Shown in pieces: positions 32,877 to 50,558 of a DNA stretch of 63,272 nucleotides. Location of the stretch: assembly GCA_016282705.1 (NCBI GenBank), contig JAEELO010000094.1:1-63272 (forward strand). The letters are read 5' to 3'. The stretch is from Candidatus Gastranaerophilales bacterium (GTDB lineage Bacteria; Cyanobacteriota; Vampirovibrionia; Gastranaerophilales; Gastranaerophilaceae). Position 1 is the stretch's first letter. Each line of letters begins with the position of its first letter. Both the position numbers and the translations under genes were made by a program. Below the pieces are notes generated by a model that searched no databases, was not told where the DNA came from, and saw nothing but the letters and a program-made list of their open reading frames with translations.

Positions 32877-33701
32877 ATGCAAAAAATACTGAGGTATATT
32901 GGTTTTGTAATATTAATTTTAGGAGCTGTTTCTATGCTCTTGCCTTTTATTTATATGTTGTCACTTTCTTTTATGACAGATACTCAAATATTTTCAGGAA
33001 CAGTAAGTTTCTTACCGTCTCCATATACCGGAGAAAATTATAAATATGTTGTAAATAACGCAGATATTTTCAGATATTTTTTCAATAGTATGTTTGTTGC
33101 AATTGCAACGACAATTGGACAGGTAATTATTTCCGCAATGGCAGGTTATGCATTTGCCAGATATAACTTTAAATATAAAGAAATTTTATTCTTTTTAGTT
33201 ATTGTTTCAATGATGATACCTCCGCAAGTGAATATAATTCCTTTATTCTTTTTAATGAAGCAGTTTCATTGGATAGATACATATTGGGCATTAATAATTC
33301 CCGGATTATTTGGCGGATTTGGTGTATTTATGATGAGGCAATGGTTTAAATCTATGCCGGATGACATGGAAGCTTCGGCAAAAATAGACGGATGCAGCAG
33401 TTTTGAGGTGTTTTATAAAATAGCACTTCCTCTGGCGCTTCCTGCACTTGCTACTCTTGCTATTTTTACTTTTATAACGACATGGAACAGTTTTATGTGG
33501 CCGTTAATTGTTACAAATTCGGATGCAATGAGAACATTGCCGTTAGGATTAGCTAATTTTAAAGGAAGTTTTAGAGAAATCACAGATTGGGGTGCTTTAA
33601 CAGCATATTCCGTAATTTGTTCTATTCCGGTTATTGCTGTATTTTTACTGGGACGTAAATATTTTATAAATGATATTCTTGGCGGAGGAATTAAAGAGTA
33701 A
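32877..33701 (+). CDS. Carbohydrate ABC transporter permease (MalG/UgpE type)
   Basis: An inner-membrane subunit of a sugar importer. The 274 aa have six helices and the EAA loop SAKIDGCSSFEVFYKIALPL, which docks the ATPase. The C-terminus DWGALTAYSVICSIPVIAVF is typical of the MalG branch. Its usual partners, a MalF-type permease and a solute-binding protein, are missing beside it. A MalK/UgpC-type ATPase is found 23 kb away at 56071. It sits between an exonuclease and a glycosyltransferase, so the set seems dispersed. Confidence 0.93.
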   Translation: MQKILRYIGFVILILGAVSMLLPFIYMLSLSFMTDTQIFSGTVSFLPSPYTGENYKYVVNNADIFRYFFNSMFVAIATTIGQVIISAMAGYAFARYNFKYKEILFFLVIVSMMIPPQVNIIPLFFLMKQFHWIDTYWALIIPGLFGGFGVFMMRQWFKSMPDDMEASAKIDGCSSFEVFYKIALPLALPALATLAIFTFITTWNSFMWPLIVTNSDAMRTLPLGLANFKGSFREITDWGALTAYSVICSIPVIAVFLLGRKYFINDILGGGIKE

Positions 33702-33708
33702 TTATTTT

Positions 33709-35103
33709 ATGGAAAAGACTATAGAATATTTAAAAAACAATAAATTTAACATAATTTTGGCTGTTTGTTATTTATTAGTAACAAGCATTTTAATGCTTCA
33801 TCATGAAATATGGAGAGATGAAGCTCAAGTGTGGTGTCTTGTGAGGGATTTACCATTTGAAGAAATAATAAAAACAGCCAAATTAGAAGGACATCCGATA
33901 TTATGGTATTTATTAATAATGCCTTTTGCAAAGATAGGTCTGCCTGTTATTTCAATGCAAATAATAAGTCTGTTATTTGTTTTTGCAGGTGTTCTTTTTC
34001 TGATATTTAAATCTCCGCTGACCAATTTACAAAAAATCCTTGTTGTATTCAGCTCCGGACTTATATATCACTTCCCTATTATTGCCAGAAACTATGCATT
34101 AATACCTTTATTCTTATTTATACTTGCATATTTGTATCCTTTAAGAAAAGAAAGTCCTTATAAATATGTATTATGTTTAATTTTGCTGTCAAATACTCAT
34201 TTGTTAATGCTGGGATTTTGCGGAATTTTAACTTTATTATTCACTGTAGAAAAGTTTCAGGAAATAATAAAATCAAAGAACATCAAGCAGTTTTTACCGG
34301 TTGTTTTTATTGTTATTAATTTCTTGTTAATAATTTTGACATTTTTGCATATTCCCCAGCAAAATCAATCAATATATGAATATTCACAAGAAAAAATTCC
34401 GTTTATATATTCTTTTATAAAATTTATATGGGCATTTTCTCCTTATCTAAAAGGGATATATACAATAGCGGATATGATAATTTTCCTTGTAATATTGTGT
34501 TTAACGGCAATTTCTTTATTTAAAAATGATAAAAAATTGTTTTTGGTGTTTATCGGTTCTTTTCTATTTTTGTTTTTAATCTTTTTAAAGGTTTGGTTTG
34601 GCGGTATTGTATATCAAAAAGCGTTTATTCTTTATCTTATAATTCTTTTTTGTTATTGGGCTTGTGATACAAAAGTCAGGTCAAAGTTATTTAATATTGT
34701 TATTATGATAATTTTTATAATAAATTTTGTGTATGGAGTTTTTGATATTTATAAAGAAATAAATTACCCGTTTTCTTCAGCTAAAGAAACGGCTGAATAT
34801 ATAAAAAATAATATTGAAAAAAATAATATAATTTGTGCTGTCGGTAAAACATATTTATATACGGGAATAAATGCATATCTTCCCGAAAGAAGTTATTATT
34901 CACTCTCGCAGGATAAGTTTTTCACCTTTCATGATTTTAATAATTTATATTTTATGAAAAAAGAAAAACCTGTTTGCAGGTATTATATAATGCCGTATAA
35001 ATATAATGCCGGAAAAGAGTTTAAGTTATTATATTCTAGCAATAAGTATAATATAATCAATAAATATGCAGAAGAGGAAATATTTAAAATATATGAAAAA
35101 TAA
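33709..35103 (+). CDS. GT-C type glycosyltransferase, copy 1
   Basis: The 464-aa polytopic membrane protein resembles polyprenyl-phosphate-sugar-dependent glycosyltransferases. Right after the first helix it carries HHEIWRDEAQVWCLVRD with the acidic motif of the first extracytoplasmic loop, then EGHPILWYLLI, both hallmarks of this fold. About ten more helices and a short periplasmic C-terminus follow. An in-frame upstream ATG lies inside the permease gene, so the ATG at 33709 is chosen. It is a close paralogue of the next gene. Confidence 0.85.
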   Translation: MEKTIEYLKNNKFNIILAVCYLLVTSILMLHHEIWRDEAQVWCLVRDLPFEEIIKTAKLEGHPILWYLLIMPFAKIGLPVISMQIISLLFVFAGVLFLIFKSPLTNLQKILVVFSSGLIYHFPIIARNYALIPLFLFILAYLYPLRKESPYKYVLCLILLSNTHLLMLGFCGILTLLFTVEKFQEIIKSKNIKQFLPVVFIVINFLLIILTFLHIPQQNQSIYEYSQEKIPFIYSFIKFIWAFSPYLKGIYTIADMIIFLVILCLTAISLFKNDKKLFLVFIGSFLFLFLIFLKVWFGGIVYQKAFILYLIILFCYWACDTKVRSKLFNIVIMIIFIINFVYGVFDIYKEINYPFSSAKETAEYIKNNIEKNNIICAVGKTYLYTGINAYLPERSYYSLSQDKFFTFHDFNNLYFMKKEKPVCRYYIMPYKYNAGKEFKLLYSSNKYNIINKYAEEEIFKIYEK

Positions 35104-36514
35104 TAAATCCAATATATTCCTTATTTTTATTTATATTTTAATAACAATTATATTATTATTTCATCATGAAATATGGCGTGATGAAGCACAAGCTTGGTGC
35201 ATAGTAAGAGATTTGGGATTAATTGATATATTTAAAATGTCAAGAATTGAAGGACATCCTATTCTTTGGTATTTGTTATTATATCCTTTTGCGAAATTAG
35301 GATTTTCAGTTATTTCAATGCAGATAATAAGTTTATTATTTGTTTTAGCTGCAGTAATAGTTTTTGTTTTTAAATCTCCTTTTAATTATTTTCAAAAATG
35401 CATATTTTGTTTTAGTGCGGGCATGTTGTATTACTTACCTGTCATAGCAAGAAACTATGCACTTATACCTATATGTTTATTTATTATTGCCGTTTTATGG
35501 AAAGACAGACATAAACATATATGGTTATATTCTTTGGCTATTATTATGCTTTCACAAACACACTTATATATGCTGGGATTTTCATTTATATTGTTTTGTT
35601 TATTAATATATGAACTATGTAAAAAATACAATGAAGAAAAACAAATAAAAGTTTTATATCCTTTAATAATGCTTGCAATAAACTTTTTGTCAGTATTTTT
35701 TATATTTAATCATACTCAGGAAGGGAACTATGCTCTTAAAACCGAACTTCAGATTTTACCTTCGTTTTGGGATACAATAAAGCTTGTAAGTCTGGTATTT
35801 ATACATTCAATAGTTAAATATATAACACCGTTAATTAAATACAGCACATTGATAAGTCTTATTTGTTTTATTTTTCCGGTCGGCATTATTTTTTACAGAT
35901 TTTTCAAATTAAGTAAAAAAATATTTATTATATCAGTATTTTCAATAGGATATTTATTATGTATATTCTATTTCGTGTATTTTAACGGGATTTTATATCA
36001 AAAAGCATTCTTGTTGCTGTTAATAATAGCGGTATGCTGCTGGATAGTTATTGAAGAAACTAATATAAAAGATAAGATTTTATTATGGAGTTTAAATATC
36101 CTCTTTATAATAAGTTTAATGGTTTCTCCCTTTGTTATTTATGAAGAATTAAAATATAATTTTTCAGGCAGTAAAGAAATAGCGGAATATATAAAGCAAA
36201 ATTTGGATGATGAAAATACCTTTATAGCCTTCGGAAATCCGTTTATATATTCATCCGTCAGCGCGTATTTACCGAATAAAAAACTTTATAACGTAATAAG
36301 TAATTCTTATATTTCATATTATTCGTTTAAGTCGGATTTAAATAATAAAAAAGATAATATGCCTGAAAATAAAAAATATTACATAATACATAATAATGTA
36401 TCCCAAATAGAAGAAATGGGGTTTCATATTTTATATGAATTGAAGAAAAAGAATATAAATATAGATATAAAGGAATGCGAAGAAATTTTTAAAGTATGTA
36501 TAAAAGAAGACTAA
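35093..36514 (+). CDS. GT-C type glycosyltransferase, copy 2
   Basis: A 473-aa paralogue of the gene before it, sharing HHEIWRDEAQAWCIVRDL, EGHPILWYLLLYPFAKLG, FSVISMQIISLLFV and IARNYALIP in the same order. Ten or so membrane helices follow. Copies align throughout, with divergence increasing toward the C-terminus, so this is an old tandem duplication. The start overlaps copy 1 by 11 bases. Acceptor and sugar are unknown. Confidence 0.85.
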   Translation: MKNNKSNIFLIFIYILITIILLFHHEIWRDEAQAWCIVRDLGLIDIFKMSRIEGHPILWYLLLYPFAKLGFSVISMQIISLLFVLAAVIVFVFKSPFNYFQKCIFCFSAGMLYYLPVIARNYALIPICLFIIAVLWKDRHKHIWLYSLAIIMLSQTHLYMLGFSFILFCLLIYELCKKYNEEKQIKVLYPLIMLAINFLSVFFIFNHTQEGNYALKTELQILPSFWDTIKLVSLVFIHSIVKYITPLIKYSTLISLICFIFPVGIIFYRFFKLSKKIFIISVFSIGYLLCIFYFVYFNGILYQKAFLLLLIIAVCCWIVIEETNIKDKILLWSLNILFIISLMVSPFVIYEELKYNFSGSKEIAEYIKQNLDDENTFIAFGNPFIYSSVSAYLPNKKLYNVISNSYISYYSFKSDLNNKKDNMPENKKYYIIHNNVSQIEEMGFHILYELKKKNINIDIKECEEIFKVCIKED

Positions 36515-41020: not shown

Positions 41021-41785
41021 ATGATGATAACCGACGAACATAAAAAAATATATAAATCAAAAGTTGAAGCAATAAAAAAGGTTTCGGCATCTTCTTATTT
41101 TATCGAAATTGATTGCGGTTTCCCTGTTGAAGTTAAAGCCGGACAATTTATATCAATATATTGTGACGGTCTGACATTAAGACGACCATTTAGTGTTTAT
41201 TCAAACAATAACGGCAAAATAGGTGTTTTATTTAAAGAAAGAGGACAGGGAACAAAATATATTAAATCGTTAAAAGAAAATGATTTTATAGATATTATGG
41301 GACCTGTCGGCAACGGATTTAATATTAAAAATAAAAAAGCATTATTAATAGGAGCAGGTATTGGTGTTGCTCCTATTTCTTTCTTAAAAACAAAACTGGA
41401 TGAACAAAAAATTGAAAATACTTTTATAGCAGGGTTTTTAAATAAACAGGAAATACCGAACGGAATAAATGCAGACATATTTTGTACCGATGACGGTTCA
41501 TACGGTAAAGAAGGCAATGTATTAACAGGGACAGAGAAAATTATAGAACAATATAAGCCGGATATAATCTATGCATGCGGGCCGTTGATTGTATTAAAAC
41601 AAGTTGCGCAAATTGGTGAAAAATATAATATTGAAACTCAAATTGCTATGGAAAAAGTTATGGCATGCGGTATAGGTGTATGCAGAGGCTGTGTTATAGA
41701 TATTAAAAAAGACGGAAAGATTGTAAATGCAACTGTATGTAAAGATGGGCCTGTTTTTTTAGGAAGTGAGGTTGTATGGCAGTAA
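41021..41785 (+). CDS. pyrK: Dihydroorotate dehydrogenase B, electron transfer subunit
   Basis: Passes electrons from the PyrD active site to NAD+. The 254 aa have an FAD domain with LRRPFSVYSN, an NAD-binding half with LIGAGIGVAPISFL, and a C-terminal [2Fe-2S] site with CGIGVCRGC and a fourth Cys in NATVCKDGPVF. AAGGGAT lies just before tandem ATGs. It overlaps pyrD by 10 bases. It is first in the operon and follows the attenuator-like leader. Confidence 0.95.
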   Translation: MMITDEHKKIYKSKVEAIKKVSASSYFIEIDCGFPVEVKAGQFISIYCDGLTLRRPFSVYSNNNGKIGVLFKERGQGTKYIKSLKENDFIDIMGPVGNGFNIKNKKALLIGAGIGVAPISFLKTKLDEQKIENTFIAGFLNKQEIPNGINADIFCTDDGSYGKEGNVLTGTEKIIEQYKPDIIYACGPLIVLKQVAQIGEKYNIETQIAMEKVMACGIGVCRGCVIDIKKDGKIVNATVCKDGPVFLGSEVVWQ

Positions 41786-42702
41786 TCGCTGAGAACCTTA
41801 AAGTTAATTTAAACGGTTTTGTTATGCAAAATCCTATTATGACAGCATCAGGAACATACGGATATGCGGATGAATACAATGCATTTATTGATGTTTCAAA
41901 ACTCGGTGCTATTGTTACGAAAGCAATTTCAATGAGTCCAAGAGAAGGAAATAAACATATACGCATAACTGAAACAAAAGCAGGCATGATTAACTCCATC
42001 GGGTTGGAAAATGTCGGTATAGATGTATTTTTACGGGATAAACTTCCGATTTTGAAAAAAAATAACATTAATTTTGTTATGAATATAGCGGGAACAACCG
42101 TTGATGAATATGTCAGCCTTGCAAAAATTTGTGATGACAACAAAATTAAGGCTATAGAATTAAATGTATCTTGTCCTAACGTAAAAGCAGGTTGCTTGGA
42201 ATTCGGAACGGATGAAAATTCGCTTTTTGAACTTGTTAATGCGGTAAGGAAAGTATATACGGGATGTCTAATAGTAAAGCTTACTCCGAATGTAACATCA
42301 ATTGAAAAGCTCGGTATTGCTGCGGAAAAAGCAGGTGCAAATGCGGTTAGTGCAATAAATACGTTAAAAGGAACTTCTATAAAACTAAATTTAATAAACG
42401 GTAAATTTAAAAAAGAAATAGTATCGGGCGGATATTCGGGAACAGGTATAAAACCTGTTGCAATAAGTGCTGTTTACAGACTTTCTAAAGTCATAAATAT
42501 ACCGATTATCGGAATTGGCGGTATAGAAACACTTGAAGATGTATTGGAATTTTTTGCTGCAGGAGCAGATGCCGTTCAAATAGGAACAGCAAATTTTACT
42601 CATCCTGAAATATCGGAAAAACTTGTTGTTGAGCTTAATGAATATATTAAAAATAACAACTTTAAAGACTTAGAAGAATTAAAAAGAGAGTTGAGGGCAT
42701 AA
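41776..42702 (+). CDS. pyrD: Dihydroorotate dehydrogenase B, catalytic subunit (class 1B)
   Basis: Oxidises dihydroorotate to orotate in the fourth step of UMP synthesis. The 308 aa are a TIM barrel with bound FMN. Landmarks are PIMTASGTYGYADEY, LGAIVTKAI, ELNVSCPNVKAG with the catalytic Cys of class 1B, VKLTPNVT and IGIGGIETLEDVLEF. Adjacent PyrK confirms the NAD-linked heterotetramer. It ends 2 bases before pyrE. Confidence 0.96.
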   Translation: MAVIAENLKVNLNGFVMQNPIMTASGTYGYADEYNAFIDVSKLGAIVTKAISMSPREGNKHIRITETKAGMINSIGLENVGIDVFLRDKLPILKKNNINFVMNIAGTTVDEYVSLAKICDDNKIKAIELNVSCPNVKAGCLEFGTDENSLFELVNAVRKVYTGCLIVKLTPNVTSIEKLGIAAEKAGANAVSAINTLKGTSIKLNLINGKFKKEIVSGGYSGTGIKPVAISAVYRLSKVINIPIIGIGGIETLEDVLEFFAAGADAVQIGTANFTHPEISEKLVVELNEYIKNNNFKDLEELKRELRA

Positions 42703-42704
42703 AA

Positions 42705-43280
42705 ATGGCAAATGAAGTGTTAAATTTATTAGAACAAGCAGAGGGAGTGTTACATGGGCATTTCTGTCTGACATCAGGTCTTCATTCTGATATATATTTT
42801 CAATGCGCTAAGTTATATCAATATCCTGATATTACCGAAAAACTCGGTAAAAAATTAGCTGAAGCATTATCGAATATTGAGTTTGATACAATAGTAGCAC
42901 CCGCAATAGGGGCTGTGATAATCGGATATGAAACTGCAAAACAGGCAAAAAAACGCAATTTGTTTGTTGAAAGAAAAGACGGTGTAATGCAGTTAAGACG
43001 AGGTTACAGTCTTAAAAAAGGAGAAAAAGTTGTAATTATAGAAGATGTAATAACAACTGCAAGAACAATAAAAGAAACAATGGAAGCCATAAAAGAGTTT
43101 GAACCCGAAGTGGTTGCTGTGGGATGTATTGTGGATAGAACAAAAGGTAAGACAGAATATAATATAAAATCATTAATGCAGATTGATCCTGTCGTATATG
43201 AACCAAATGATTGTCCTTTATGTAGAGAGGGAATACCGCTTGTAAAACCCGGCAGCAGAGAAGAAAAGGCAAAAGTATAA
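42705..43280 (+). CDS. pyrE: Orotate phosphoribosyltransferase
   Basis: Couples orotate with PRPP to give OMP. The 191 aa have LTSGLHSDIYFQCAKLYQYP, the PRPP loop VVIIEDVITTARTI, and the nucleotide-binding start of GYSLKKGEKV. A C-terminal extension NDCPLCREGIPLVKPGSR follows, of the form seen in the longer PyrE variants. The stop overlaps the pyrB start codon by 1 base (TAATG). Confidence 0.95.
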   Translation: MANEVLNLLEQAEGVLHGHFCLTSGLHSDIYFQCAKLYQYPDITEKLGKKLAEALSNIEFDTIVAPAIGAVIIGYETAKQAKKRNLFVERKDGVMQLRRGYSLKKGEKVVIIEDVITTARTIKETMEAIKEFEPEVVAVGCIVDRTKGKTEYNIKSLMQIDPVVYEPNDCPLCREGIPLVKPGSREEKAKV

Positions 43281-44194
43281 TGGAACATTTAATTGATATA
43301 GCAAGCATATCAAAAGAAGATATTGTAAATATCATAAATCTGGCAAAACAGTTCAAAACAGGCAAAAAAAATTCCGATGTTGAAACAAAAACACTTGCTT
43401 TGATGTTTTATGAAAATTCAACAAGAACCAGATGCAGTTTTGAAATTGCAGGTCAAAAACTCGGGATGAATATTATTAATTTTGATGCTAATCATTCTTC
43501 TCTTTTAAAGGGAGAAAGCCTTAAAGATACAATAGAAAATTTATATTTTTTAGGTGTAAATGCAGTAGTTATAAGACATTCATACTCAGGAATAATCAAT
43601 AATGTAATGAGATTGGTTAAATACCCGATAAAGTTTATAAATGGAGGAGACGGTACACACGCACATCCTTCACAGGCACTTTTGGATTATTACACAATGC
43701 TTGAAAAAATAGGTACAATTGATAATAAGAAGGTTGTAATAGTAGGTGATGTTGCGCATAGCAGAGTTGCAAAGTCAAATATAAGTCTTTTATCTAAATT
43801 TGGAGCGGATATTCATGTATGTGCACCTACTTATCTGCAATTTACTCATTACAATGACCAAATAAGCTATCATAATGATGTTAAAGAAGCAATAGATGGT
43901 GCAAATGTCGTTATGGTCTTGAGAGTTCAAAATGAAAGACATGAAAAAGAAGGTTATCCTGATTCTTCGGAATATAAACGATTATACGAAATAGATACCG
44001 ATTTATTGAAAAAATATGCGGCAAATGATGTTATACTTATGCATCCCGGACCTGCAAACAGAAATATTGAAGTATCTTCAGAGCTTCTTGATAATACCGT
44101 CGGAAAAACAATACTGGAACAAGCACAAAACGGAGTATTTGTCAGAATGGCAATTCTTAATACATTGCTGAAAGGAGTTAATAATGCTTCTTAA
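43280..44194 (+). CDS. pyrB: Aspartate carbamoyltransferase, catalytic subunit
   Basis: Condenses carbamoyl phosphate with aspartate, the committed step of pyrimidine synthesis. At 304 aa it is a catalytic chain. Visible are FYENSTRTRCSFEIA (carbamoyl phosphate site), the lysine loop SSLLKGESLKDTIENL, VIRHSYSG, NGGDGTHAHPSQALLDYYT and HPGPANRNIEVSSEL. No regulatory chain (pyrI) is present, so the Bacillus-type trimer is likely. It overlaps pyrC by 11 bases. Confidence 0.97.
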   Translation: MEHLIDIASISKEDIVNIINLAKQFKTGKKNSDVETKTLALMFYENSTRTRCSFEIAGQKLGMNIINFDANHSSLLKGESLKDTIENLYFLGVNAVVIRHSYSGIINNVMRLVKYPIKFINGGDGTHAHPSQALLDYYTMLEKIGTIDNKKVVIVGDVAHSRVAKSNISLLSKFGADIHVCAPTYLQFTHYNDQISYHNDVKEAIDGANVVMVLRVQNERHEKEGYPDSSEYKRLYEIDTDLLKKYAANDVILMHPGPANRNIEVSSELLDNTVGKTILEQAQNGVFVRMAILNTLLKGVNNAS

Positions 44195-45458
44195 AAACGG
44201 AATAATAGTTAATCCTGCAAATAATTTTGAAGGAAATTCTGATATAAGAATTGAAAACGGCATAATAACCGAAATAGGAAAAAATCTTTCAGCTGTTAAT
44301 AATGAAGAAATAATTGACTTAACGGGAAAAACAGTTACTCCCGGATTGGTTGATATTCATTGCCATTTAAGAGAACCGGGATTTAATGCAAAAGAAACAA
44401 TTAAAACCGGTATTGCTGCTGCTATAAACGGTGGTTATACTGCAATATGCCCGATGGCAAATACAAATCCACAGGTGGATAATGCTGCAACACTTATGTA
44501 TACGATAAGTAAAGCAAAAGAAACAGGTGATATCGGCTTTTATCCTATTTGTGCCGTTACAAAAGGGTTAAAAAGCGAAAAGATAGTTAATGTATCAGAA
44601 TTGCTTGATAATGGTGCAATCGCATTTTCAGATGACGGAAAACCCGTTGAGAATATGCATTTACTTAGAGAAGCACTTCAATATATAAATTCTCACAATT
44701 CAATAATTATATCGCATTCCGAAGATTCTTCTCTTGCTTCAGGCGGTGTAATAAATGAGGGTAAAGTCAGCACAAGAACGGGATTAAAAGGAATTCCGGA
44801 TATAACTGAGGCTTTAGCAATAGCAAGAGAATTGGAAATAGTAAGAAGCGTAAACGGAAGATATCATTTTGCACATGTTTCAACAAAACGTTCGGTTGAG
44901 CTTATAAGACAAGCAAAAAAAGAAGGATTAAAAGTTACGGCTGAAACAGCGCCTCATTATTTTAGTCTTACCGAAGATGATATGATTGATTATGATGCAA
45001 AATATAAAGTAAATCCTCCGTTAAGAACAAAAGAAGATTTGGATGCTGTTGTACAAGGACTACAAGACGGAACAATAGATGTAATTGCAACCGACCATGC
45101 TCCCCATACGGTTCATGAAAAGCAGCTGCCGATACAGGATGCGCCGATGGGAATTTCAGGATTTGAAACTGCTCTGGGGTTAACTCTTACAAATCTTGTT
45201 CATAACGGAAAACTTTCTTTAACGGAAGCAATAAGAAAATTAACAATTGCTCCTGCAACTGTGCTAAATATACCAAATCAAGGTACAATAGAAGCAGGGA
45301 AAGAAGCTAATTTAACAGTTATGGACATAAATGAAGAGTGGACTGTAGATGCTTCAAAATTCAAATCAAAATGCAGAATATCTCCTTTTGACGGATTTAA
45401 GTTAAAGGGAAAAGCTAAAATGACAATAATAAAAGGTAAAATAATAAATATAGGATAA
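44184..45458 (+). CDS. pyrC: Dihydroorotase, class I
   Basis: Cyclises carbamoyl aspartate to dihydroorotate. The 424 aa show the zinc site DIHCHLREPGFNAKETI near residues 58-74, further metal and catalytic regions IISHSEDSSLASGG and HFAHVSTKRSVELI, and the C-terminal Asp in VIATDHAPHTVHEKQ. Length and motifs are those of the long class I enzymes that associate with PyrB. It starts within the pyrB tail. Confidence 0.97.
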   Translation: MLLKNGIIVNPANNFEGNSDIRIENGIITEIGKNLSAVNNEEIIDLTGKTVTPGLVDIHCHLREPGFNAKETIKTGIAAAINGGYTAICPMANTNPQVDNAATLMYTISKAKETGDIGFYPICAVTKGLKSEKIVNVSELLDNGAIAFSDDGKPVENMHLLREALQYINSHNSIIISHSEDSSLASGGVINEGKVSTRTGLKGIPDITEALAIARELEIVRSVNGRYHFAHVSTKRSVELIRQAKKEGLKVTAETAPHYFSLTEDDMIDYDAKYKVNPPLRTKEDLDAVVQGLQDGTIDVIATDHAPHTVHEKQLPIQDAPMGISGFETALGLTLTNLVHNGKLSLTEAIRKLTIAPATVLNIPNQGTIEAGKEANLTVMDINEEWTVDASKFKSKCRISPFDGFKLKGKAKMTIIKGKIINIG

Positions 45459-45462
45459 AAAT

Positions 45463-47301
45463 ATGTTGATAAGACCTGAGATAAAAGAAAAAATAGTACT
45501 TGCACTTGATGTTGATACACCTGAGCAAGCAAAAGCATTAATAACGGAATTAAAAGACTATGTCGGTGTATTTAAAGTGGGACTGCAATTATACACAGGC
45601 AACGGTTATGAAATATTTGATTTTATGAAAGAGCAGAATATAAAATTCTTCTTTGACATAAAACTGCATGATATACCGAATACTGTTGCAAAAGCTGCAG
45701 AAAATGTTGTAAGACATGGTGCTTCGTTTTTTAATATGCATACTACAGGCGGTGAAACAATGATGAGAACCGCACAAGAAGCAGCAAGAAAAGCTGCAGC
45801 CGAATTGGGAAAAGAAAATCCTACAATTCTCGGTGTAACGGTACTTACAAGTATCGGAGAAGAAAGTCTGCAAAAAGAATTAAAAGTACCTTATAAGCCG
45901 AATGATTATGCCCTTCATCTGGCACTAATGGCAAAAAATGCAGGACTGGATGGTGTAGTTGCAAGTGTATGGGAAGCAAAAAAAATAAAACAGGTTTGCG
46001 GAAAAGATTTTAAAGTATTATGTCCGGGTATAAGACCTGATTGGGCAGCTAAAAATGATCAAAAACGACTTGCAACACCAAGCGTTGCAATAAAAGAAGG
46101 TGCTGATTATTTAGTAATCGGAAGAGCGGTAACAAGTGCTGAAGACCGATTAAAAGCAATCAAAATGATATATGAAGAAATAGAAAATGCACTTTTAACT
46201 CAAAATAAATCGTATGCCTTATCAAAAGGAAAATTGATTTTAGAAAACGGTATGATATTTGAAGGAGAATCAGTTGGTGCTGACGGAACTTCTTATGGAG
46301 AGATTGTATTTAATACTTCAATGGAGGGTTATCAGGAAATATTAACGGATCCTTCGTATGCAGGTCAGACAATTGTTATGACATATCCTGAAATCGGTAA
46401 TTACGGAATTAACAGGGAAGATTTTGAAAGCGGAAAAATTCATGCAAAAGGTTTAATTGTAAAGAATATGTGTGAAAATGAATCGCATTATAAAAGTTAT
46501 ATAAGCTTAAGTGATTACCTTAAACAGAATAATATTGTGGCACTTAAAGGTATTGATACAAGATATTTAACCCAAATTATAAGAAACCATGGTGCTATGA
46601 ATTGTGCAGTTACAACAGGTGAAATAACTCATGAAATAAAAGAAAAAATGAAAGAATATCGAATAAGCAAAGATATAACAATGGATGTAACGACCTATAA
46701 GATTGACAGATTTACGGGAAGCGGAGTTAAACTTGCTATTATTGATTTGGGACTTAAAAAGAGTATTTTTGAGAATTTTAAATCTATGAATTGTGATATA
46801 ACTATATTCCCTGCAGATACAAAACCGGAAGAAATACTTTCCGGCAATTTTGAGGCGGTACTTCTTTCCAATGGCCCCGGAAATCCTGAAGATGCAGAGC
46901 AGGCTATTGAAACAGCAAAAGCACTGTTGGGCAAACTTCCGTTATACGGAATATGTTTAGGGCATCAAATACTATCAATAGCACTAGGTGCAAAAACATA
47001 TAAGTTAAAATACGGTCATAGAGGCGGTAATCATCCTGTTATGAATATGCAAACAGGTGAAATTTTTATAACCTCTCAAAATCACAGTTATGCGGTTGAT
47101 GCAGAATCTCTTCCGTCTGATGTTGAAATAACATTTAAAAATCTCAATGATGATACGGTTGAAGGTATTAATTGTGATAAATACAGAATAAAGACCGTAC
47201 AATTCCATCCGGAATTGACGGCAGGACCTTATGATGCAAATAAGATAATAAGAAGCTGGGTTGCAGAATTGGAAAAGACAGCGCAAACAATTAATGTATA
47301 A
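45463..47301 (+). CDS. pyrF-carA: Fused OMP decarboxylase - carbamoyl phosphate synthase small subunit (PyrF::CarA)
   Basis: One continuous frame of 612 aa joins two enzymes normally made separately. Residues about 1-240 are OMP decarboxylase: VLALDVDTPEQAKALI, then FFDIKLHDIPNT with the D-x-K-x2-D catalytic tetrad members (D65, K67, D70), and YLVIGRAVTSAEDR. A linker of about 15 aa follows. From about 253 CarA begins: GKLILENGMIFEGESVGAD, VVFNTSMEGYQEILTDPSY-like residues, LSNGPGNPEDAEQAI, and class I amidotransferase motifs YGICLGHQIL (nucleophile Cys498), QNHSYAV and FHPE (His582, Glu584). The join has no stop or ribosome-site-plus-start of its own. It is followed by carB after 17 bases. 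Confidence 0.93.
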   Translation: MLIRPEIKEKIVLALDVDTPEQAKALITELKDYVGVFKVGLQLYTGNGYEIFDFMKEQNIKFFFDIKLHDIPNTVAKAAENVVRHGASFFNMHTTGGETMMRTAQEAARKAAAELGKENPTILGVTVLTSIGEESLQKELKVPYKPNDYALHLALMAKNAGLDGVVASVWEAKKIKQVCGKDFKVLCPGIRPDWAAKNDQKRLATPSVAIKEGADYLVIGRAVTSAEDRLKAIKMIYEEIENALLTQNKSYALSKGKLILENGMIFEGESVGADGTSYGEIVFNTSMEGYQEILTDPSYAGQTIVMTYPEIGNYGINREDFESGKIHAKGLIVKNMCENESHYKSYISLSDYLKQNNIVALKGIDTRYLTQIIRNHGAMNCAVTTGEITHEIKEKMKEYRISKDITMDVTTYKIDRFTGSGVKLAIIDLGLKKSIFENFKSMNCDITIFPADTKPEEILSGNFEAVLLSNGPGNPEDAEQAIETAKALLGKLPLYGICLGHQILSIALGAKTYKLKYGHRGGNHPVMNMQTGEIFITSQNHSYAVDAESLPSDVEITFKNLNDDTVEGINCDKYRIKTVQFHPELTAGPYDANKIIRSWVAELEKTAQTINV

Positions 47302-47318: not shown

Positions 47319-50300
47319 ATGCCGATAAATGAAAATATTAAAAAAGTTCTTGTAATAGGTTCAGGACCGATTGTAATAGGGCAGGCAGCGGAATTTGATT
47401 ATGCGGGTGTTCAGGCATGCAGAGCACTAAAGGAAGAAAATATAGAAGTTGTCCTTGTAAATTCAAATCCTGCAACGATAATGACGGATGAAAATATTGC
47501 TGATAAAGTTTATATTGAACCTTTAACACTCGAAGCACTTACATATATAATTGAAAAGGAACGACCTAACGGTATTATAGCAACATTGGGAGGTCAAACA
47601 GGATTAAACCTTGCCGTAAGTCTTTTTGAACACGGAGTATTAGAAAAATATAATGTTGAACTTCTGGGTACAAAAATAGACTCCATAAAAAAAGCAGAAG
47701 ACAGAGAAATGTTTAAAAATCTTATGCTTGAAATAGGCGAACCTATTCCCGAAAGCGATATTGTTTCAAGTTATGAAGATGCTAAAAAATTCGCTCAGAA
47801 AATAGGTTTTCCTATAATTATAAGACCTGCATATACTCTTGGCGGTACAGGCGGTGGTATTGCAAATAATTATTCCGAATTTGAAGATATTGTATATACA
47901 GGATTATCACTAAGTCCGATTTCGCAGGTTCTTGTTGAAAAAAGTATTGCAGGTTATAAAGAAATTGAATATGAAGTAATTCGTGATGCAAATAATACAA
48001 GTATTGCGATATGTAATATGGAAAATATTGACCCGATTGGTATTCATACAGGCGACAGCTTCGTTGTTGCACCTACACAAACACTTACAAATAAAGAATG
48101 TCAGATGCTCAGAAGTGCAGCTTTAAAGATAATAAGAGCATTAAAAATAGAAGGCGGATGTAATGTTCAATTTGCTTTGGATACAGTAAGCAATCAATAT
48201 TATGTAATCGAGGTAAACCCTCGTGTAAGCCGTTCTTCGGCACTTGCTTCAAAAGCAACAGGGTATCCGATTGCAAAAATAACAACAAAAATAGCAATAG
48301 GATATAATTTGCACGAAATACCGAATTCAATAACAAAGAAAACAGTAGCTGCTTTTGAGCCGACAATAGATTATGTCGTTACCAAAATACCTAAATGGCC
48401 GTTTGATAAATTTAAACACGGTGACAGAATATTAGGCACTAAGATGAAGGCAACCGGTGAAGTAATGGCAATCGGCAGAACATTTGAAAGCTCATTTAAA
48501 AAAGCCGTAACATCTATTGAATCGAAATACACAGGCTTGCTGCGCGGCAGACATATGGAATGCAGTGAAGAAGAATTAAAAGCATTATTGCATGTTCAGG
48601 ACGACAGAAGAATTTTTAGGGTAGCTGAAGCTATTAATCGCGGTATTAGTGTAAGCGAAATAAATAAGATAACAAAGATAGATAAATGGTTTATATATAA
48701 AATCAAAGATTTGGTTGATTTTGAAAATAAATTAAAAAGTGAAACCTTAACGGCGGATTTGTATCTTGAGGCAAAAGAAAAAGGTTTTTTGGATATTGAA
48801 ATTTCTAAATTATCCCAAGTTCCTTTAGCTGACGTTGAAAGAATAAAAAAAGAAAATTCAATCAGTGCTTCATTTAAAATAGTCGATACATGTGCTGCTG
48901 AGTTTAAAGCATATACACCTTATTATTATTCAACTTATAATGAAGCGGACGAAATAAATGCTACTGATGATAAAAAGATATTAATTTTAGGTTCGGGTCC
49001 AATAAGAATAGGTCAGGGAATAGAATTTGACTATTGCTCCGTACATGCTGCTTGGGAAGTAAGAAATAACAATTATAAATCATTAATTGTAAATTCAAAT
49101 CCCGAAACACTTTCAACGGATTTTGATGTTGCGGATAAACTTTTCTTTGAACCGATGAATATTGAAAATATAATGAATATTATAGAAAAAGAAAACCCTG
49201 AAGGTGTAATGGTTCAATTTGGCGGACAAACAGCAATTAATTTAGCACCAAAATTATATGAACGCGGAGTAAAAATTCTCGGAACATCATTGGAATCAAT
49301 AAATATAGCAGAAGACAGAAAATTATTTGAGCAATTATTGAGAGATTTAAAAATACCTCAGCCTAAAGGCGGAGCGATAAGACGACCTGATGAAGCTTTA
49401 GAAGTTGCAAAAACTCTCGGTTATCCTTTGTTGGTAAGACCTTCATATGTTATAGGCGGACGTGGTATGCAGGTTGTTTATAATAAAGATGAACTTCTTT
49501 CATATATAGAAGGTGCATTAAAGTTCTCAGATGAACATCCGATACTTATTGACCAGTATATAGAAGGAACAGAACTTGAATTGGATGCTATTTCGGATGG
49601 CGAAAATGTTTTAATTCCTGCGATAACAGAACATATTGAAAGAGCAGGTATACATTCAGGTGATTCTATTGCATTGTATCCGACCCGTACAATACCGCAA
49701 AATATAATAGATAACCTGGTTGATTATACTCAAAAGATAGCGAAAGCATTAAAAGTTAAGGGTTTAATGAATATTCAATTTGTATTAAAAGATAATATTG
49801 CGTACATAATTGAAGTTAATCCGCGTGCATCAAGAACAGTACCGATTTTAAGTAAAGTAACAGGCACTCCTATGGTAAAAATCGCAATAGATGCCATTCT
49901 CGGCAAGTCTATACCCGAACAAGGCTACCAAACAGGATTGCTGCCGACAGGGAAGTTAGTTTGCGCCAAAGTTCCTATTTTCTCATTCCAGAAGTTAAAC
50001 AGAATTGACCCTGCTTTAGCACCTGAAATGAAGTCAACTGGTGAAGTTCTTGGTATTGATACTTCCTATGAAAGAGCATTAACGAAAGGATTCTTGGCGG
50101 CAGGTTATAAGCTTTCAACAGAAAGAGGCAATGTATTAATATCTATAAATGACCATTATAAGAAGGATTCTGTAGGTATTGCTCAAACACTTGTCGATTT
50201 GGGTTATAAACTTGTGGCAACAACCGGAACACATAAATTCTTGAAGCTGCACAATATAGAATCTAAAGAAATTGAAAAATTTGATATCCAAAAAATGCAA

Positions 50301-50558
50301 AGAAATATGAAAAATAAAGAACTTTGCTTTATAATTAATACTCCTACAACAAATAATAATTCCGTAAGATACGGTTCTGAAGACAGAGGCTTTTTGATAA
50401 GAACAATTGCGGAAATGTATTCTACACCTTGCTTTACATCGTTAGATACTGCAAGGGCATATTTGGAAGCACTTCAATATTATATGAAGGATAAAAATCT
50501 TACATATGACAGTATTGATAAGTATAGAGATGTGGAATTAGCTGTAAACAGGGCATAA
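47319..50558 (+). CDS. carB: Carbamoyl phosphate synthase, large subunit
   Basis: Makes carbamoyl phosphate from bicarbonate, ATP and the ammonia supplied by CarA. The 1079 aa contain the duplicated ATP-grasp halves: VLVIGSGPIVIGQAAEFDYAG and later ILILGSGPIRIGQGIEFDYC; IRPAYTLGGTGGGIA and LVRPSYVIGGRGMQVV; and VIEVNPRVSRSSALASKATG and IIEVNPRASRTVPILSKVTG. A C-terminal methylglyoxal-synthase-like allosteric domain (about 940-1079) has VDLGYKLVATTGTHKFL. UMP inhibition is expected of the family. This single CPS probably also serves arginine, if made. Confidence 0.97.
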   Translation: MPINENIKKVLVIGSGPIVIGQAAEFDYAGVQACRALKEENIEVVLVNSNPATIMTDENIADKVYIEPLTLEALTYIIEKERPNGIIATLGGQTGLNLAVSLFEHGVLEKYNVELLGTKIDSIKKAEDREMFKNLMLEIGEPIPESDIVSSYEDAKKFAQKIGFPIIIRPAYTLGGTGGGIANNYSEFEDIVYTGLSLSPISQVLVEKSIAGYKEIEYEVIRDANNTSIAICNMENIDPIGIHTGDSFVVAPTQTLTNKECQMLRSAALKIIRALKIEGGCNVQFALDTVSNQYYVIEVNPRVSRSSALASKATGYPIAKITTKIAIGYNLHEIPNSITKKTVAAFEPTIDYVVTKIPKWPFDKFKHGDRILGTKMKATGEVMAIGRTFESSFKKAVTSIESKYTGLLRGRHMECSEEELKALLHVQDDRRIFRVAEAINRGISVSEINKITKIDKWFIYKIKDLVDFENKLKSETLTADLYLEAKEKGFLDIEISKLSQVPLADVERIKKENSISASFKIVDTCAAEFKAYTPYYYSTYNEADEINATDDKKILILGSGPIRIGQGIEFDYCSVHAAWEVRNNNYKSLIVNSNPETLSTDFDVADKLFFEPMNIENIMNIIEKENPEGVMVQFGGQTAINLAPKLYERGVKILGTSLESINIAEDRKLFEQLLRDLKIPQPKGGAIRRPDEALEVAKTLGYPLLVRPSYVIGGRGMQVVYNKDELLSYIEGALKFSDEHPILIDQYIEGTELELDAISDGENVLIPAITEHIERAGIHSGDSIALYPTRTIPQNIIDNLVDYTQKIAKALKVKGLMNIQFVLKDNIAYIIEVNPRASRTVPILSKVTGTPMVKIAIDAILGKSIPEQGYQTGLLPTGKLVCAKVPIFSFQKLNRIDPALAPEMKSTGEVLGIDTSYERALTKGFLAAGYKLSTERGNVLISINDHYKKDSVGIAQTLVDLGYKLVATTGTHKFLKLHNIESKEIEKFDIQKMQRNMKNKELCFIINTPTTNNNSVRYGSEDRGFLIRTIAEMYSTPCFTSLDTARAYLEALQYYMKDKNLTYDSIDKYRDVELAVNRA

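Follow-up and report, generated by a model that had tools for sequence, protein, structure and literature searches.

Passages of the literature on pyrimidine biosynthesis describe PyrE-PyrF and PyrF-PyrE fusions, CAD, ATCase-DHOase fusions, and single-chain carbamoyl phosphate synthases (CPSases) (PMC2705460, PMC7052976, PMC13232951, PMC6022934). Two of these sources attribute the PyrE-PyrF and PyrF-PyrE proteins to several independent fusion events (PMC2705460, PMC7052976). The pyrimidine fusions named in these passages join consecutive steps of the pathway (PMC2705460, PMC7052976, PMC13232951, PMC6022934), and substrate channelling suggests itself as their reason. An NCBIfam model for PyrF/PyrE exists (PRK05500). 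A different combination was identified in a 63,272-nt stretch of contig JAEELO010000094.1 (Candidatus Gastranaerophilales bacterium, GenBank assembly GCA_016282705.1), referred to here as the window, where one gene (45463..47301, + strand, 612 codons plus stop) joins OMP decarboxylase (PyrF) to the small subunit of CPSase (CarA). Like UMP synthase, the protein has OMP decarboxylase fused to an enzyme of the same pathway; unlike UMP synthase, where the partner is OPRT from the adjacent step, it pairs the decarboxylase with a first-step subunit, and PyrE is encoded by a separate gene. The arrangement also resembles CAD and the fungal CPSII-ATCase, as these are described in part of one source, in that a polypeptide carrying several pyrimidine enzymes includes the glutaminase domain of a CPSase (PMC6022934). 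CAD covers steps 1 to 3 including the synthase, whereas here only CarA is fused, at its N-terminus, to the last step. Each half scores above the cut-off of its own family, and the difference from ordinary PyrF and CarA is that they form one chain.

The original prediction held that this frame contains a complete PyrF followed by a complete CarA with both active sites intact, and domain searches agree on each count. Translation of 45463-47301 gives 612 residues and a terminal stop, with zero internal stops. Pfam places OMPdecase (PF00215) at residues 10-236 (45490..46170, profile positions 2-221 of 221), CPSase_sm_chain (PF00988) at 258-382 (46234..46608, 1-125 of 126), and the glutamine amidotransferase domain, GATase (PF00117), at 426-595 (46738..47247, 2-183 of 190). 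The NCBIfam PyrF equivalogs PRK00230 (258 bits, cut-off 193) and TIGR01740 (178 bits, cut-off 92) both match above cut-off, as does the CPSaseIIsmall model TIGR01368 (438 bits, cut-off 307, profile positions 2-360 of 361). No NCBIfam family spans both halves among the best 25 of 30 matching families. In Pfam and in the same best 25 of 30 NCBIfam families, the chain has no match to OPRT and none to a CPSase synthase, ATCase, or DHOase; pyrE, carB, pyrB, and pyrC are separate genes. The PyrF motif D65-x-K67-x-x-D70 (45655..45672) is identical in 39 of 39 aligned fused rows, one of which (L078) is a cut copy of another (L060). By conservation and alignment with E. coli CarA, the glutaminase nucleophile position is C498 (46954..46956) and the remainder of the triad is H582 and E584 (47206..47214); these residues fall within stretches aligned to GICLGHQ and HPE of the E. 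coli protein. D65, K67, D70, C498, H582, and E584 are assigned the catalytic roles typical of the two families. The fusion gene is the sole CPSase_sm_chain match in the window's genome.

A model of the fusion was predicted with AlphaFold2 (monomer) from a 65-row alignment comprising the window protein and 64 of 67 fused and unfused rows, with L056 and both L084 rows excluded. The mean pLDDT is 89.5 and the pTM is 0.69. The junction (46147..46224), defined from the model and from the selection analysis of the linker, consists of a terminal PyrF helix (residues 229-245) and a short hinge (246-254). In the model the last PyrF helix reaches residue 245, the first strand of CarA starts at 255, and the only run of at least three residues with pLDDT under 50 is 249-253. 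Foldseek matched the CarA part to E. coli CarA (TMt 0.88-0.89) and the PyrF part to bacterial PyrF (about 0.9), and none of the best 50 alignments covered both halves.

The fusion gene is the sixth of seven closely spaced genes on one strand between 41021 and 50558, in the order pyrK-pyrD-pyrE-pyrB-pyrC-(pyrF·carA)-carB. These are pyrK, the dihydroorotate dehydrogenase electron-transfer subunit (41021..41785, +, Pfam DHODB_Fe-S_bind); pyrD (41776..42702, +, Pfam DHO_dh); pyrE (42705..43280, +, TIGR01367 above cut-off); pyrB (43280..44194, +, PRK00856 above cut-off); pyrC (44184..45458, +, TIGR00857 above cut-off); and, starting 17 nt downstream of the fusion gene, carB, the CPSase large subunit with an MGS-like C-terminal domain (47319..50558, +, TIGR01369 above cut-off, MGS PF02142). 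Judged by gene order and spacing, the seven genes for the whole UMP pathway apparently form one operon and transcript. Elsewhere in the window (33670-36514), two adjacent membrane-protein-like open reading frames of 477 and 482 aa are similar by eye and are perhaps a tandem duplication. A second, stand-alone PyrF is encoded on another contig of the window's genome (G000:C39; L076:7081-7842). It carries the motif DGKFQD, scores above the PRK00230 cut-off, and is 47% identical to the fused PyrF. Of 23 genomes searched in the window's genus, 21 have a full-length stand-alone copy. Because a stand-alone PyrF is present, the fused PyrF need not be the sole OMP decarboxylase and may have a specialised or redundant role.

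The single polypeptide is conserved across the genus and beyond it. Among 32 loci from close relatives (L002-L033, 78%-89% identity, 29 of them labelled Candidatus Gastranaerophilales), 31 have a single frame, including L005, which reaches a contig end, and L032 is broken within CarA. Translation gave the fusion as an unbroken frame in 36 of the 39 genomes examined from the window's genus. Loci L037-L056 covered 20 of these (the window's own genome included), and 16 were fetched in addition; the locus sets overlap, with 13 of the 16 additionally fetched proteins identical to one among L002-L033. The three exceptions are G010, which is split inside CarA, away from the junction, and G004 and G022 (90% and 84% complete), in which no CarA match was found. 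The same fusion occurs in three other genera, in G049 (genus g26), G069 (g46), and G057 (g34), with a longer form in G093 (also g34). Selection on the junction was estimated from 34 distinct proteins of the window's genus, a set that leaves out three later distinct proteins (L104, L107, and L116). We used pN/pS, which is safer than dN/dS here because pS is 0.55-0.64. The linker (residues 238-256) has a pN/pS of 0.115, compared to 0.145 for PyrF, 0.111 for the CPSase domain, and 0.207 for the GATase domain. Purifying selection on the joining peptide is similar in strength to that on the folded domains, and the low value indicates translation of the junction and selection on it at the protein level. 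The prediction of a single PyrF-CarA polypeptide is thus borne out by the shared frame and by selection on the linker.

Unfused relatives for which the whole stretch was available have the same operon order, with pyrF and carA as separate neighbours. At 11 of 13 unfused junctions, no more than 36 nt separates the aligned ends; the other two are L064 (323 nt) and L069 (417 nt). A linker (EIEN...LTQN) is common to the window's genus, g26, and g46; the g34 linker differs. A phylogeny was constructed by a quick LG+G4 search from 36 rows of concatenated carB, pyrE, pyrD, pyrB, and pyrC, with PyrF and CarA excluded; L063, L070, and L089 were omitted, and L087 and L088 carry none of these genes in the fetched stretch. 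The two fused sets are placed apart, so that two changes of state are needed, and FastTree on the same alignment also separates them. An approximately unbiased (AU) test rejects a single fused clade (p = 0.0024), and a single origin of the fusion is rejected on this LG+G4 tree, with the caveat that an odd composition was flagged for L060, which is one of two rows from g34. An unfused f7 genome (L061) is sister to the larger fused clade with support of 87, and because of this placement the operon does not strictly follow the family codes. The tree supports two in-frame joinings of the neighbouring cistrons pyrF and carA within Gastranaerophilales as the probable and simplest history.

The longer form in G093 (L060:5768-10213, - strand) is one frame of 1,481 aa with OMPdecase, then CPSase_sm_chain (profile positions 1-118 of 126), then the CarB domains. 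Pfam detects no GATase domain in this protein, and the window's GATase used as a query gave no match in the G093 genome (92% complete) at E 0.001. If the frame is correct, the absence of GATase means that its CPSase must use free ammonia. This form is known from one genome; in the congener G057 the fusion has two parts and includes GATase, and no CarA match was found in the congener G120 (57% complete). The single-chain CPSases, which combine glutaminase and synthase and include the ammonia-dependent human CPS1, are the closest described systems, since in G093 the N-terminal domain of CarA is joined to CarB. CPS1 keeps a glutaminase-like part, with which residues 255-606 of the window protein, in CarA, align, whereas G093 lacks the entire GATase domain and has PyrF in front. 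Point losses in the glutaminase occur within the window's genus, in two of 37 distinct proteins: C498 is G in G002 (L056/L083), and H582 is Y in L026, from goat colon, with the same protein in G356 (L112). With the Cys lost in one protein and the His in another, the CarA glutaminase is not always kept, and glutamine use has possibly been lost in G002 and L026 while the fusion was retained. The GATase domain also evolves faster than the CPSase domain (pN/pS of 0.207 and 0.111).

The two halves catalyze the last step (PyrF) and part of the first step (CarA) of the pathway and have no common intermediate. Channelling between them is therefore excluded, leaving stoichiometry, scaffolding, or feedback, and because the halves cannot channel an intermediate between them, a first-last fusion isolates these three as testable explanations. 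PyrF enzymes are homodimers with shared active sites. In the mechanism that we favor, the protein is a bifunctional enzyme in which a helix and a hinge of about nine residues connect OMP decarboxylase with the CPSase glutaminase subunit, the CarA half would still bind CarB and feed ammonia to it, and the PyrF half would dimerise and so tie together two CarA-CarB units. The fusion would also hold the first-step and last-step subunits at 1:1, and the coordinated abundance or positioning suggested in the original prediction is a reasonable expectation. We put the probability of the whole reading at about 0.8, namely a bifunctional PyrF-CarA that arose by two in-frame joinings, with CarA binding CarB and a PyrF dimer bridging CPSases. 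Relatives without the fusion, its two separate origins, and the end-point in G093 together provide a natural comparative series.

The supply of carbamoyl phosphate bears on whether such a link is tolerable. The window's genome (91% complete) has exactly one OTCace_N match, pyrB, and no ornithine carbamoyltransferase gene was detected there by the same search. The count is likewise exactly one in G049, G057, G069, and G093 and in 20 congeners, counting G010. Since no ornithine carbamoyltransferase gene was detected, carbamoyl phosphate is probably used for pyrimidines only, in which case a first-last link would be harmless or useful. Among unfused CarA-bearing relatives, seven of 10 also have one OTCace_N gene, with more in G033, G045, and G074 (the extra gene of G074 is in two pieces). 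Loss of the arginine branch was rejected as a specific cause because most unfused relatives also have no second OTCace_N gene, and for the fusion this loss is permissive at best.

It is possible that the fusion is neutral, a stop having been lost between nearly overlapping genes, with the tails tolerated and the joined gene persisting without benefit, since re-splitting would take a new stop, start, and ribosome site. The neighbouring cistrons of the unfused relatives, the spare PyrF in the genome, and the confinement of the fusion to one family among the matches listed speak for it. Two origins on the tree and retention across three genera in one lineage count against it, as does a linker constrained about like the folded domains, though folding alone may explain that constraint. 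None of these three observations proves a benefit, and we continue to prefer the bifunctional, CPSase-bridging protein while regarding neutrality as the less probable account. More doubtful is an extension of the preferred reading, in which these proteins would be a bacterial counterpart of CAD built stepwise, twice, with the ends of the pathway joined in place of its first three steps, a scaffold made by the PyrF dimer, UMP released at a regulated CPSase, and, as the end-point, the G093 protein, in which PyrF, the CarA docking domain, and CarB make up a single chain that has shed its glutaminase and uses free ammonia.

UMP is described, in part of one source, as a known inhibitor of E. coli CPSase (PMC6245113). 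Local feedback, in which fused PyrF would release UMP beside the UMP-binding allosteric domain of CarB so that the exit of the pathway damps its entry, nevertheless appears unlikely to be what the fusion is for. CarB keeps its MGS-like domain, and 14 of 14 rows examined from the window's genus retain residues equivalent to Thr977 and Lys993, which would permit such feedback, but the Lys993 equivalent is N in the fused G057, G069, and G093, several unfused relatives have K, and UMP diffuses fast. Feedback at the UMP site was rejected as a general reason because this CarB lysine does not track the fusion.

The fused frame might instead yield two proteins, CarA being freed by an internal start (TTG 258 or ATG 264) or by proteolysis at the hinge, which has low model confidence at 249-253. 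The claim that no stop or usable internal start lies between the halves holds for the stop and was too strong for the start, since the window's fusion has TTG at codon 258, with an SD-like AAAAGGA upstream of it (-5.8 kcal/mol). TTG at 258 is present in just 8 of 38 fused proteins. An in-frame ATG at 264 is kept in 36 of 38, but its upstream pairing is weak (-2.6 kcal/mol), though that of the carB start is equally so (-2.4 kcal/mol). In the AlphaFold2 model, a start at 258 would remove about half of the first CarA strand (255-260) and a start at 264 would remove all of it, so both candidates would damage or delete the strand, and separate products seem quite improbable. An assembly or binning artefact, in which a base error removed a stop between pyrF and carA, is almost certainly wrong and is for practical purposes refuted, because 36 of 39 congeneric genomes and members of three further genera share the frame and purifying selection acts across the junction, even though the related records are mostly labelled metagenome assemblies.

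We searched for the fusion more widely in public genomes. In a sample of the order, 131 of 383 genomes have a CarA match. Of these, 33 from the window's genus have long CarA frames, as do G049, G057, G069, and G093; G010 is split, and in the remaining 93 no frame exceeds 418 aa. The converse, no CarA match, applies to 252 of 383 Gastranaerophilales genomes and to 202 of 305 with completeness of at least 90% and contamination of no more than 5%. Three phylum samples were also searched, comprising 398 genomes from the phylum of L034 (Clostridiales; presumably Bacillota), 275 from that of L036 (Omnitrophota), and 292 Cyanobacteriota. Among the matches listed from these samples there is no PyrF-CarA fusion outside the window's family. 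Among the matches listed for Omnitrophota and Bacillota, no alignment starts before query residue 174, and each of the six starting before 236 is interrupted by stop codons. Among frames that were long or odd, seven were read (six from these Omnitrophota and Bacillota searches and one from another Bacillota search), and none gave a PyrF match at E 1e-4. Listed open-frame lengths are loose (CarA of L094 is given as 815 aa despite a TAA between pyrC and carA), so fusions were counted by translation only.

A PyrF-CarA fusion goes unmentioned in the titles, abstract openings, and some passages of the PMC open-licence papers searched, and the phrase 'pyrF-carA' returned no paper in the PMC open-licence literature. 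The suggestion that this architecture is undescribed holds within that literature and the genomes searched; both enzymes are ordinary, and what appears to be undescribed there is their combination, together with its origin in two events and the form found in G093. A separate elaboration of CarA was seen in genome G577 (L100:2266-3873), where a CarA frame of 536 aa has a long low-complexity insertion within the GATase domain, and the CarB of the same locus has a G/P/D-rich stretch.
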